37,103 nucleotides of DNA, from positions 1-37,103 of the forward strand of contig NZ_JAAHHT010000077.1 in NCBI RefSeq assembly GCF_010672085.1, in the 5' to 3' direction. Source of the DNA: Okeania sp. SIO3I5 (GTDB lineage: Bacteria > Cyanobacteriota > Cyanobacteriia > Cyanobacteriales > Microcoleaceae). The notes under the pieces were generated by a model. It saw nothing but the letters and a program-made list of their open reading frames with translations. It was not told the origin of the DNA and made no database searches. Positions 18,240-37,103 of the stretch are shown piece by piece (positions within the stretch are counted from its first letter, which is position 1; each line of letters begins with the position of its first letter). A program made the position numbers and the translations under genes.

Positions 18240-18479
18240 ACTTGTTTTGAAAATATTTTTACTTATACTAAATTTCGTGTATTCTGCCTACAGATTATTG
18301 AGATTAAGGAGTAGGGTTTTTAGGTATAATAGATTTTGGCTTAATGGTTACTAATTGTTAAAAATATTATGGAACCTTACTACTTATTAGTTAATAACTG
18401 AAGTTTTGAGAAAATGAGGAAATATAGCATTATTTCTAGGAATTGGTTTTACAGATAAAATTTTTCAGCTAACCACAAT

Positions 18480-19648
18480 AAATGAAAATGTTTGTGCTTT
18501 TCCGCTAAGAAGAGATAAATGGAAAGATTTGATCGAGGAAAAACAAGCAGACATTTTTTTTGTGGAGGAGCTTCACAGGATGAAAGTTTTCTGGCATCCT
18601 TTCTGGGGAAAATTCCTAGATATTTGATTATCTCTGAGCTAGGAAATTTAGTTGAATAATAAGTCATGCTTAGGGGCGAGTAAACCACACTAACATTTAT
18701 AATATCAGAATTTTTGAAAGGATGCAACTAAAAATCCTTTGACGCGCCGTTTTTTTAGGAGCTTTAGAAAATGCAAATGTTGGTGGTTTTCACTAAGCAG
18801 AGATAAATGGAAAGATTTGATCGAGGAAAAACAAGCAGACATTTTTTTTGTGGAGGAGCTTCACAGGATGAAAGTTTTCTGGCATCCTTTCTGGGGAAAA
18901 TTCCTAGATATTTGATTATCTCTGAGCTAGGAAATTTAGTTGAATAATAAGTCATGCTTAGGGGCGAGTACACCCAACTAACATTTATAATATCAGAATT
19001 TTTGAAAGGATGCAACTAAAAATCCTTTGACGCGCCGTTTTTTTAGGAGCTTTAGAAAATGCAAATGTTGGTGGTTTTCACTAAGAAGAGATAAATGGAA
19101 AGATTCGATCAAGGAAAAACAAGCAGACATTTTTTTTGTGGAGGAGCTTCACAGGATGAAAGTTTTCTGACATCCTTTCTGGGGAAAATTCCTAGATATT
19201 TTATGATCTCTGAGCTAGGGAATTTAGTTGAATAATAAGTCATGCGTAGGGGCGAGTACACCCCACTAACATTTATAATATCAGAATTTTGGTGAGGATG
19301 CAACTAAAAATCCTTTGACGCGCCGTTTTTTTAGGAGCTTTAGAAAATGCAAATGTTGGTGGTTTTCACTAAGAAGAGATAAATGGAAAGATTCGATCAA
19401 GGAAAAACAAGCAGACATTTTTTTACGGGAGGAGCTTCACAGGATGAAAGCTTTCTGGCATCCTTTCTGGGGAAAATTCCTAGATATTTGATTATCTCTG
19501 AGCTAGGAAATTTAGTTGAATAATAAGTCATGCGTAGGGGCGAGTACACCCCACTAACATTTATAATATCAGAATTTTTGAAAGGATGCAACTGAAAATC
19601 CTTTGACGCGCGGTTTTTTAGGAGCTTTAGAAAATGAAAATGTTTGTG
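18480..19648. repeat. Four tandem copies of a 288-bp repeat
   Basis: The marker gatgcaacta falls at 18721, 19009, 19297 and 19585, exactly 288 bp apart. The outer edges, aaatgaaaatgtttgtg at 18480-18496 and 19632-19648, are 1152 bp (4 x 288) apart, while inner junctions read aaatgcaaatgttggtg. Copies are nearly identical, with scattered substitutions and one change in the T/A-rich segment of copy 4. Each contains possible hairpins (ttcctag with ctaggaa, aggatg with catcct). Minus-strand frames of 64-92 codons recur but end between units and vary in sequence, so I do not call them genes. The flanks 18240-18479 and 19649-19728 have nothing recognisable. Confidence 0.95.
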
Positions 19649-24001: not shown

Positions 24002-25482
24002 CCCGCGCTCTCCATCCCCCCTAATCCCCCTTTGAAAGGGGGGAGGGGAGCGTCGGTGATTAATACCAAACCATGCTATAGTATAGTAACTAATATTAGT
24101 AACGGGTCGATAAAATTGAAAGCCAGGTACAAATACCGCATCTATCCAAACCATGTTCAAATAACTAAATTAAATCAACTATTTGGTTGTTGTAGATATG
24201 TTTGGAATCAAAGTTTAGCACATTGTAATCAATTATATGCCAATGGTCAAAAGAAACCAACTTACGTTGATTTAACTAAGCAATTCATTACTCAGGTCAA
24301 GCAAGAATTAGTTTGGTTAAAAGCAGTCGCATCTACTCCATTACAACAGTCTCTCAAGGATTTAGACCAAGCTTACAAAAACTTTTTTGATGGTTGCAAA
24401 GGTAAACGAAAAGGGATTAAGGTTAAGCCTCCAAAGTTTAAGTCTAAAAAATCTAGGCAATCTGCAAGATTTGTAGGTGATAATTACAAGATTGGTCAAG
24501 ATAAAATTTACTTACCAAAAGTAGGTAATATTAAAATAGTTTGGTCTAGAGAACTACCTAATAAGCCTACCTCTTTGACAATAATCAAAGATTCAGCAAA
24601 TCGTTATTTTGCTAGTTTTGTAGTAGATATAAATCCTGAGCCTTTACCTAAAACTAATAATTCAATAGGAATTGATTTGGGGATTTCGACTTTTGCAACC
24701 TTGAGTAATGGAGATAAAATTAATGCTCCAAAACCTCTCAAGCAAAACCTTAAGAAACTGGCTAAATTCCAGCGTAAATTTGCTCGTACTGAAAAAGGCA
24801 GCAAGCGTCGTGAGAGACGTAGATTAAGAGTAGCTAAACTTCATGCTAAAATTAAAGACATTCGCACAGATTTTCTGCACAAACTGTCAACTGATTTGGT
24901 CAAAAAAAACGACATTATTGTGTTAGAAGATTTGAATGTTTCTGGAATGGTTAAAAACCGCAAATTAGCTAAGGCAATCTCAGACTTAGGCTGGAGAGAA
25001 TTTCGGACTTTAACTGAGGCTAAGTGTGACAAATATGGTAGAGAATTTAGGGTTATTGATAGATGGGAAGCTACAAGTCAAAAATGTTCTAATTGTGGTT
25101 TTAAAGGTGGCAAAAAAGAGCTGAACATTAGAGAATGGACTTGTTTAAATTGTGGTGCATTCCATGATAGAGATCTAAACGCTGCTATTAACATCTTAGA
25201 AATTGTTCAACCAAAAACCAAGGTTGAAATATTTGAAGAAACAGTAGAAGAGAATCCAGTGCCTCCTGCGGAGGAGCTACGCTATCAACTATCACTTTTC
25301 AATGAAGTCGCCGAGGGGCACTCGGAGACAATTAAACGGACACGGAGGAAGCGTCAGACTGGCAAGCCAGCATTTTTCAGTGAGGTGTCAACCCGTTCTG
25401 AGTCATTTGTTCAGCTTAGTCTGTTTGAATGATGGATGGGAATCCCGCGCTGTCTAGTAGAGCAGCGTCGGGAGGATGTCAA
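24002..25482 (+). mobile_element. IS200/IS605-family element with tnpB only (IS1341-like)
   Basis: The left-end hairpin (24002-24056, cccgcgctctcc paired with the ggggagcgtcgg side) and right-end hairpin (about 25443-25472, cccgcgct with agcgtcggg, then aggatgtcaa) bracket one tnpB gene. No Y1 transposase gene is present, so movement needs TnpA in trans. Ends match remnants at 2833-3150, 9887-10140 and 10531-10546. Exact tips are uncertain. The rest of the gap after clpP3 (23710-24001) has nothing recognisable. Confidence 0.8.
24116..25432 (+). CDS. tnpB: TnpB, RNA-guided nuclease of IS200/IS605 transposon
   Basis: About 438 residues from a TTG start that gives the family N-terminus (L/M)KARYKYRIYPN. 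The frame stays open 28 codons upstream, into the left-end hairpin. The RuvC triad is complete: D187 (IGIDLGI), E271 (VLEDLNV) and D353 (HDRDLNAA). The zinc finger has C324, C327, C343 and C346 (CSNCG, CLNCG). The protein should be a functional transposon-encoded nuclease guided by RNA from the element's right end. Residues after about 365 form a low-conservation tail, with PPAEELRYQLSLF and SFVQLSLFE. DNA for that tail overlaps palindromic right-end sequence and is also kept in the deleted copy at 2833-3150. Confidence 0.9.
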   Translation: MKARYKYRIYPNHVQITKLNQLFGCCRYVWNQSLAHCNQLYANGQKKPTYVDLTKQFITQVKQELVWLKAVASTPLQQSLKDLDQAYKNFFDGCKGKRKGIKVKPPKFKSKKSRQSARFVGDNYKIGQDKIYLPKVGNIKIVWSRELPNKPTSLTIIKDSANRYFASFVVDINPEPLPKTNNSIGIDLGISTFATLSNGDKINAPKPLKQNLKKLAKFQRKFARTEKGSKRRERRRLRVAKLHAKIKDIRTDFLHKLSTDLVKKNDIIVLEDLNVSGMVKNRKLAKAISDLGWREFRTLTEAKCDKYGREFRVIDRWEATSQKCSNCGFKGGKKELNIREWTCLNCGAFHDRDLNAAINILEIVQPKTKVEIFEETVEENPVPPAEELRYQLSLFNEVAEGHSETIKRTRRKRQTGKPAFFSEVSTRSESFVQLSLFE

Positions 25483-35876: not shown

Positions 35877-35891
35877 TGATAGTTAAACTTA
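35877..35891. promoter_or_regulatory. Shared 15-bp upstream motif, site 1
   Basis: tgatagttaaactta ends 23 bases before the HTH gene. The identical 15-mer lies at 36488-36502, 17 bases before the ParA-fusion gene. It is a candidate operator for the HTH protein. Confidence 0.4.
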
Positions 35892-35914
35892 TAGAATAAT
35901 AAAACTATTGTACA

Positions 35915-36418
35915 ATGGTTAAAAAGAAAAACAAAAGAATTATCGGTACTACAGAAGCAGCATATTTATTGGGTATTTCCGGTCAACGTTTGCGAGTGTT
36001 ATTATCTCAAGGTAGAGTCAAAGATGCTGAAAAGAAAAATGGTTTTTGGCAAATTCCTGCTTATGGGCGTCAAGGTAGTGAAATGCCAATTATTTTCCCT
36101 GGTAGAAGGGGTCCGAAAGGGAATTGGTGCAAAGAAAAGCGCAATGACCCTACAATGATTCATGTTAACCAGCATATCATTAAGGCAAATGCCAAGACTC
36201 CACTAAAGAAATTAAAGCCTGTAGTCTCTGTAAAGGATACTAACCGTAATGACTACGGTTATCAGCTAGAAATTAAAGGTCCTTGCCGAATAGTATATCA
36301 TCCTCACGACCCTGCTAATTGTGGGGCACATTTGTGGATTGACACTTTTAGTCGAGTGCAATTTGTAGATATTAATTTTAATCCCATTACGGCCTGTCGA
36401 GCATACAAATATATATAG
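35915..36418 (+). CDS. Helix-turn-helix (excisionase/MerR-like) DNA-binding protein
   Basis: A 167-residue basic protein. Residues 10-50 are a winged HTH of the excisionase/MerR type (TTEAAYLLGISGQRLRVLLS, then a GFWQIPAYGR wing). The middle (51-105) is Lys/Arg/Pro-rich with a WCKEKRNDP segment. The C-terminal part (106-167) contains C124, C136 and C161, and a VYHPHDPANCGAHLW motif that I cannot assign. Start ATG 35915, no strong ribosome site. It is 101 bases upstream of the ParA-fusion gene on the same strand, and both carry the same 15-bp upstream sequence, which suggests regulation or partition-site binding. The function is not established. Confidence 0.75.
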   Translation: MVKKKNKRIIGTTEAAYLLGISGQRLRVLLSQGRVKDAEKKNGFWQIPAYGRQGSEMPIIFPGRRGPKGNWCKEKRNDPTMIHVNQHIIKANAKTPLKKLKPVVSVKDTNRNDYGYQLEIKGPCRIVYHPHDPANCGAHLWIDTFSRVQFVDINFNPITACRAYKYI

Positions 36419-36487
36419 ATATTATAGACGTAATTTTAAGTCGAGTAAATAAAATTTAGATTTTTTCCCGTCTCTGTCGTGCTAATC

Positions 36488-36502
36488 TGATAGTTAAACT
36501 TA
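36488..36502. promoter_or_regulatory. Shared 15-bp upstream motif, site 2
   Basis: Identical to 35877-35891 (tgatagttaaactta). It lies between the HTH gene and the ParA-fusion gene. Confidence 0.4.
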
Positions 36503-36519
36503 ACTACAATCAACGACAG

Positions 36520-37103
36520 ATGGATAATGCTGTGAAAAATCAAGCCCTTGTAGATGCTTTGGCAAAAAATCTACCGAAGGACGCATCTGAAGCTCTAGTC
36601 AGTCAGATTTTTGCATCTGAATTATTCAATTTTTTAGGTTTTGAAGTAAATGAAAGAATACCTTCTTTTTCTACAGGAACTGGTACTCAAGCAGTCGATC
36701 ATGCTCTGCGTCATAACACGGAAAATGACATATTTAATCAAACCAAAACTAATCCAGATGTGCTTGTAGAATTGAAAAAACGGAATCTTAATTTAGCTGC
36801 TGATTCGCCAGAATATAAAAAGACAGTTGTACAAATTAAACGGTATTTATTAGCAGAAAAATGTAAAGCAGCGAAGTGGGGAATAATTACCAATGCTAAT
36901 CACATCCAATTATTTAGAAAGCATGGAAAAATTATTCATCCGGCGACAGTTTGTGTGGAAATTAATTCAGAAAATATTATCAACATCGCTACATTAATTA
37001 AAGAAAAAATTGATAAACCACGAAAAGCATTAACAGTAGCAGTTTATAACAATAAAGGCGGGGTAGGAAAAACAACTACTACTGTTAATACCGCAGCCAC
37101 TTA
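36520..37103 (+). CDS. ParA/MinD-type ATPase with nuclease-like N-terminal domain, partial
   Basis: An open frame from ATG 36520 to the right edge (194 codons seen), too long to be chance given its content. Residues 1-165 resemble the N-terminal domain of type I restriction R subunits: NPDVLVELKK (P79, D80, E84, K86), then QIKRYLLAEKCKAAKWGIIT (starting Q105) and NANHIQLFRKHGK. Residues 166 onward begin a ParA domain, LTVAVYNNKGGVGKTTTTVN, with the deviant Walker A K179-G-G-V-G-K184-T-T. ParA ATPases move plasmids, chromosomes or protein cargo. The fusion suggests a DNA-linked role; the PD...ExK spacing is much shorter than usual, so nuclease activity is uncertain. The C-terminal part is outside the window. 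Confidence 0.8.
   Translation, partial: MDNAVKNQALVDALAKNLPKDASEALVSQIFASELFNFLGFEVNERIPSFSTGTGTQAVDHALRHNTENDIFNQTKTNPDVLVELKKRNLNLAADSPEYKKTVVQIKRYLLAEKCKAAKWGIITNANHIQLFRKHGKIIHPATVCVEINSENIINIATLIKEKIDKPRKALTVAVYNNKGGVGKTTTTVNTAAT

Follow-up and report, generated by a model that had tools for sequence, protein, structure and literature searches.

ParA motors move DNA and organelles, and in the ParABS system the motor (Soj/ParA) is paired with ParB, whose canonical Box II reads GERR. The type Ia plasmid proteins P1 ParA and SopA have an N-terminal helix-turn-helix (HTH) domain, and McdA of the McdA/McdB carboxysome-positioning system is, to our knowledge, without a nuclease domain. The ParA-binding motif of ParB has been given as LG(R/K)GL, with IGRTL as the divergent P1 form, and among the fusions detected in the available part of a ParB fusion survey, just ParB-DUF3850 stood consistently beside ParA (PMC12704722).

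The window analyzed here, that is, the whole stretch of 37,103 nucleotides from Okeania sp. SIO3I5, ends within the gene of a ParA ATPase fused to an apparently intact DNA-cutting domain. The conserved unit is this ATPase together with a ParB-like gene downstream of it, and not the HTH gene and the ATPase that a preliminary description of the locus had joined as a module pair. As in ParABS, the ATPase is a ParA-fold protein whose deviant Walker A motif and A′ motif are intact, and it is accompanied by an adjacent ParB-fold partner, the N-terminal motif of which resembles the ParA-binding motif; in contrast to ParABS, a PD-(D/E)XK-type domain precedes the ParA core, the partner shows no match to the ParB HTH, a changed Box II, and an end that is usually Rho_N/SAP-like, and no general parS was found at the loci searched. 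The type Ia plasmid ParA proteins likewise place an extra domain ahead of the ATPase core, whereas here this domain is HSDR_N-like instead of an HTH. The prophage ParB-CTPase-DUF3850 protein with its ParA, as presented in the available part of the same survey (PMC12704722), is also a noncanonical ParB-fold fusion beside ParA, but the fusion considered here is with Rho_N, resides on cyanobacterial chromosomes and plasmids, and faces a ParA with a nuclease-type domain. McdA/McdB shares the cyanobacterial ParA-family ATPase (McdA, 6nop, was among the Foldseek matches listed), whereas a ParB fold characterizes the partner of the present ATPase. The N-domain family and its active-site residues are those of the HsdR N-terminus of type I restriction systems, but the ParA-nuclease lacks a helicase motor, and HsdM/HsdS were not seen among the recurrent neighbors. 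No description of an HSDR_N-ParA fusion was found in open-license papers, in keeping with the earlier view of the locus as a candidate undescribed system.

Results

The window corresponds to the whole of contig G000:C538 of a 10.5-Mb genome, and the ATPase gene is therefore cut at the contig end. Its 5′ part (36520..37103, forward strand) comprises 194 of 457 codons and runs off the end of the window. A second contig of this genome, C532, opens with the window-end sequence (126 of 127 bases agree) and supplies the remaining codons (C532 positions 3-917, locus L065), giving a full-length ATPase of 457 aa. The rightward extension proposed in the preliminary description thus completed the ATPase and led to the ParB-like gene downstream, a conserved partner missed at that time because the window stops inside the ATPase gene. 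The partner of this genome (264 aa) lies outside the window, and 670 nt separate it from the ATPase. Upstream, also on the forward strand, a gene for a 167-aa HTH protein (35915..36418) is a neighbor and probably not a component. As originally reported, the HTH and ATPase genes are preceded by two identical copies of a 15-mer, TGATAGTTAAACTTA, at 35877..35891 (23 bases before the HTH start) and 36488..36502 (17 bases before the ATPase start), both on the forward strand. An inverted repeat, CTGTCGT (36474-36480)/ACGACAG (36513-36519), spanning 36474..36519 of the forward strand, flanks the ATPase-side 15-mer and abuts the ATPase start, and a near-palindrome, ACTATTGT/ACAATGGT (35904..35919, forward strand), overlaps the HTH start codon in a form common to HTH paralogues.

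Residues 1-165 of the window ATPase (36520..37014, forward strand) were assigned to an HSDR_N-like PD-(D/E)XK domain from the Pfam family HSDR_N_2, the alignment, residue conservation, and the secondary-structure order of a model. PF13588 (HSDR_N_2) matched this domain with an E value of 1.6e-4, under the Pfam gathering score; the same family matched 19 of 19 aligned ATPase members (best E, 1.3e-7), and PF04313 matched nine of the 19. Residues were counted over 71 ATPases, namely that of the window and 70 of the 79 ATPase open reading frames (ORFs) obtained from a contig scan, leaving out nine shorter ORFs, some of them broken and some cut at contig ends. The PD-(D/E)XK residues were retained in almost every case (D60 in 70/71; E84 and K86, arranged as E84-x-K86, and Q105 in 71/71 each). 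Walker A (KGGVGKTT; 37054..37077, forward strand) was present in all 71 with V/I at one position as the sole variation, and the Walker A′ aspartates were found in 71/71 and 70/71. An AlphaFold2 model was examined for the G250 homologue (mean pLDDT, 78.5), and in our reading it places the PD-(D/E)XK residues in the strand-strand-strand-helix order expected for the nuclease fold. Foldseek placed the full G250 model closest to Soj/ParA (6iub; E, 7.7e-13), and the 50 matches listed were ParA/MinD-like and other P-loop proteins with no nuclease among them; for the N-domain, sequence-profile searches gave no PDB match. A BFVD fold search at ≤0.001 returned just one phage ParA (E, 4.4e-6) and one CpaE-like protein. 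The earlier recognition of a ParA Walker A following a domain like that of type I restriction R-subunits was thus borne out by the PF13588 matches and the intact PD-(D/E)XK residues, while the fold check suggested for this domain gave the HSDR_N profile matches and active-site residues described above and no solved nuclease structure. The ATPase of genome G068 (L076:6658-8421) has an extra N-terminal extension of ~130 residues ahead of the HSDR_N domain, which had no Pfam match at an E value of 0.05.

The gene directly 3′ of the ATPase encodes a ParB-fold protein of 225 to 311 aa where intact. An AlphaFold2 model of the L068 homologue (mean pLDDT, 89) matched ParB, Noc, KorB, PadC, and sulfiredoxin in Foldseek (best, 7bnk; E, 1.3e-5), and because the TM-scores for its ParB matches were low (0.3 to 0.4), only the N-terminal fold was taken as common with ParB. 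Across 20 partner members, ParB_N matched all 20, weakly and below the gathering score where a score was given, and Rho_N matched 17; the partners of the window's genome, G250, and L082 are without Rho_N and have instead a second copy of a middle unit of ~75 residues. No HTH family corresponding to the central HTH of ParB was among those listed for the 20 members. The Box II position reads (G/A)NSF(I/V)(Y/F)A (N in 73/73; F in 72/73), a sequence indicating that the usual phosphate-binding motif of the ParB CTPase (CTP switch) is missing from the partner. An N-terminal (I/V)G-x-L motif (G8 in 71/73; L10 in 73/73) resembles both LG(R/K)GL and the IGRTL of P1. A Rho_N-type ParB-fold partner appears to be unreported in the available part of the ParB fusion survey (PMC12704722). 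At several Okeania-type loci (L065:918-1593, L105, L107, and L109), at least one degenerate copy of a unit made up of the ATPase 3′ end and the partner up to about residue 68 sits between the ATPase and the partner, and in L115 the partner gene itself is seemingly broken.

The two genes were adjacent in all 20 first-examined loci, with a 4-bp overlap in 14 of them. The contig scan covered the best 80 of 112 confirmed relatives, all 80 titled cyanobacterial; 79 loci gave an ATPase ORF, and a partner match lay downstream in 74 of the 79 (L107 and L115, with partner fragments only, included), two of the five others (L160 and L180) running out of DNA. L107 and L109 come from one assembly, and the pairing counts are therefore not independent. 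In a survey of 291 genomes of the host's order (Cyanobacteriales), the loci of which overlap with the contig scan in source genomes (e.g., L066 and L106), the N-domain was found in 87 genomes, as a single copy in 84; the corresponding figures were 81 of 255 good-quality genomes and 48 of 121 genera. The partner profile matched 118 of the 291 genomes at 1e-3, many of them weakly; counting matches to about 1e-40 and two weaker ones (G009 and G116), 81 of the 87 N-domain genomes also carried the partner, and four genomes carried the partner alone. A partner was located downstream on the same strand at 78 of 90 N-domain places, and the 12 without it include the window itself, where the contig stops short of the partner. 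The distance matrices of ATPase and partner were correlated (r, 0.80; 56 dereplicated pairs; maximum of 1000 shuffles, 0.19), due partly to their common species history. A tree of the 71 ATPases required 14 label changes for eight orders (least, 7; shuffled mean, 36.9; 0 of 200 shuffles as low) and put the window protein among Okeania and Trichodesmium; ATPase descent largely follows the cyanobacterial lineage, and some transfer may have occurred.

Two plasmids of Nostoc sp. UHCC 0870 (L185 and L186) each carry their own pair with an integrase gene close by, identity between the two copies being 53% for the ATPase and 58% for the partner, and both plasmids also encode ParM and other ParA genes. 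A distant pair (27 to 32% identity to the queries) resides on Leptolyngbya boryana pLBA, where HSDR_N matches the ATPase weakly (PF04313; E, 0.0033, below the cut-off) and the partner has no Pfam match. A phage origin of the module was rejected, as a search of the phages collection with the N-domain gave no match, though one viral contig carries the ATPase-partner pair. On L185 (unnamed9), a TGTCT-rich array (24169-24490) located 0.6 to 0.9 kb upstream of the pair contains 10 TGTCT/AGACA words in 322 nt, against at most 3 in other such stretches of L185, and all four copies of TGGTGTCTA on this plasmid fall within it. The array is iteron- or centromere-like and possibly parS-like, and it may serve other plasmid functions. 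On the sister plasmid L186, palindromes precede the pair but TGTCT words are not enriched (4; up to 7 in other stretches), the regions preceding another 71 ATPases showed no enrichment either (mean, 1.0 versus 1.1 for the loci), and a repeat search at two chromosomal loci gave nothing convincing as a centromere. No general centromere was found at these loci, and the candidate array was seen on one plasmid; its presence on L185 speaks for partition and its absence elsewhere speaks against it. In 17 genomes measured by hand, the module lies about 30 kb from dnaN at the closest and 2.6 Mb at the farthest, and within 100 kb in two; a link to dnaN was not evident in these genomes and was rejected. 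Canonical ParB (TIGR00180, 1e-10) was present in 143 of the 291 genomes and absent from the window's own genome. The pair as a replacement of canonical ParB was likewise rejected, since the two were not associated (canonical ParB in 48/87 genomes with the N-domain versus 95/204 without; Fisher p, 0.20).

The HTH protein had no Pfam or NCBIfam match and no convincing PDB sequence match (best E, 0.078); its N-terminus is excisionase-like and its C-terminus corresponds to phrog_8676. It belongs to a cyanobacterial family present in 52 of the 291 genomes, nine of which had at least 12 matches, and the window's own genome gave 54 first-look candidates; the family had no plasmid match and partial matches in six phage records. 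Its paralogues (L085-L104) carry an ACTATTG-N2-CAATAGT or AACTATAGTGC motif a short way upstream of the start codon, and neighbors in common were not seen among them; the family may regulate itself or be associated with mobile elements. The HTH gene was rejected as a general partner of the ATPase, being upstream in only 7 of 79 loci (71 of the loci checked have at least 800 nt upstream), all from Okeania or Trichodesmium; C-terminal remnants of it were found in Hydrocoleum L108 and Trichodesmium L112 and none in L111.

The two forward copies of the 15-mer TGATAGTTAAACTTA are the only ones in the 10.5-Mb genome, with no reverse copy, and a shared run of 15 bases in the regions upstream of the two genes (290 and 101 nt) was rarer than chance, being reached by 1 of 5000 dinucleotide-shuffle pairs. 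Conservation of the 15-mer upstream of both genes, which the preliminary description had suggested testing, was not seen in the relatives: the exact 15-mer was found in none of 80 loci, though a related site was kept on the ATPase side in close kin. On that side, a 10 to 13/15 match lay 16 to 18 bases before the start in all 10 Okeania, Trichodesmium, and Hydrocoleum loci, with TGATAGTTA exact in six of them. On the HTH side, the best matches in seven relatives were 9 to 12/15; L106 (12/15) alone clearly beat shuffled sequences (5 of 500 as good), whereas in the other six 51 or more of 500 shuffles were as good. Among the loci examined, the identity of the two sites is private to the window's genome, and the 15-mer was rejected as a conserved shared operator. 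The ATPase-side site is likely a promoter or operator element, and the inverted repeat around it is approximately kept, by eye, in most Okeania and Trichodesmium relatives.

Discussion

The reading that we tentatively prefer, while holding it to be slightly short of an even call, is a two-gene DNA-positioning module of the ParA/ParB type whose ParA carries a nuclease domain. In this scenario, a ParA with an N-terminal HsdR-N-type PD-(D/E)XK domain and a ParB-fold partner would be co-transcribed as a two-gene operon. The partner, which usually ends in a predicted Rho_N/SAP-like DNA-binding domain in place of the ParB HTH, would load on a DNA cargo via this C-terminal domain and contact ParA via its (I/V)G-x-L motif, while ParA, dimeric with ATP, would associate with the nucleoid until partner-stimulated hydrolysis released it. 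The nuclease domain could be restrained or directed by the ParA cycle and could act on the bound DNA cargo by resolving, linearizing, or clearing it. That ParA possesses its own active nuclease, which the ParB-like partner leads to specific DNA for cutting there, is possible but doubtful. The positioning reading is supported by the gene pairing, the Soj/ParA and ParB folds, the partner's N-terminal motif, the correlated distance matrices, the plasmid copies, the array on L185, and the lineage-following tree. It is weakened by the failure to find a general centromere or a fixed dnaN distance, by the ParM and other ParA genes on the pair-bearing plasmids, by a partner without the usual Box II and the ParB HTH, by the share of species history in the matrix correlation, by the independence of the pair from canonical ParB, and by an N-domain that matched no solved nuclease in the searches made.

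The main rival is a defense module in which the ParB-fold protein recognizes foreign or unmodified DNA and recruits the ParA-nuclease to cut it, which we consider rather unlikely. Its main support is the near-invariance of the PD-(D/E)XK residues over 71 ATPases, and HSDR_N domains are typical of restriction systems. The patchy presence of the module (87/291 genomes) also fits, as do ParB-fold proteins such as DndB in DNA-modification systems, as presented in the available part of PMC12704722. No third recurring gene was seen in the first 20 loci beyond closely related species, and the 30 most recurrent neighbor clusters of 91 loci, read by eye, were mostly housekeeping genes or shared synteny, with no methylase, known defense gene, or HsdM/HsdS recognized among them; defense-island association was rejected on these two sets. 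A few loci have neighbors that we read as integrase-like (L070, L122, and L124) or Uma2-like (L079, L120, and L146), in favor of defense, but a PADLOC scan of eight proteins gave weak matches only (best, PDC-M28B; 3.2e-9, to the ParA part), and the ATPase tree mostly follows lineage.

Less probable still is that plasmid partition systems left the pair behind on chromosomes as a relic, with a present role limited to occasional plasmid stabilization. The Nostoc plasmid pairs, the distant form on pLBA, the degenerate duplications in some Okeania copies, the seemingly broken partner gene of L115, and the nine of 79 ATPase ORFs too short for the counts (some broken, some cut at contig ends) would suit such a relic, but the motifs are near-invariant in 71 proteins from many genera and synteny is stable both in Microcystis and in Okeania/Trichodesmium, which speaks for selection still acting on the chromosomal copies. 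We consider it similarly improbable that the N-domain is a nuclease fold kept for DNA binding or autoregulation only, in replacement of the type Ia HTH, the position of which in P1 ParA and SopA it shares; retention of the catalytic D, E, K, and Q in 70, 71, 71, and 71 of 71 proteins would be unexpected if binding alone mattered. The original model of an HTH regulator and a ParA-nuclease self-regulated via the shared 15-mer is very improbable, since the gene order, the paired sites, and their partial counterparts in close kin (7/79 loci with the HTH gene, 10/10 ATPase-side sites, and the HTH-side match of L106) are outweighed by the absence of the exact 15-mer from 80 loci, an HTH side no better than shuffles in six of seven relatives, the lack of any HTH match beside the pair outside Okeania/Trichodesmium, and an HTH family that has an upstream palindrome of its own and many copies in certain genomes; the partition- or defense-like part of that model is supported, whereas the HTH gene as the general partner and the paired 15-mer as a conserved shared operator are not.

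If the ParA does carry an active nuclease led to specific DNA by its partner, DNA positioning and cleavage would be joined in one two-gene machine widespread on cyanobacterial chromosomes; a ParA fused to an intact nuclease-type domain, with a ParB-fold partner that has lost the HTH and the usual nucleotide motif, would couple the two in a way for which we found no description. A widespread alternative of the ParA/ParB type matters in this setting, since cyanobacteria are often polyploid and canonical ParB was found in about half of the genomes surveyed.

Two minor observations were made alongside. On the minus strand of the window, four consecutive, closely similar ORFs at 18449-19591 (18449-18727, 18764-19015, 19109-19303, and 19397-19591), with starts reading MHPFKNSDIINVS or MHPHQNSDIINVS, represent a repeated DNA unit. 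In Nostoc and in genomes resembling Leptolyngbya (L161, L174, L177, L159, L168, L171, L165, and L175), a different, GTGGGCACACTAGA-like motif, often after CCC, was recognized by eye ahead of the ATPase gene and is perhaps a promoter plus operator.
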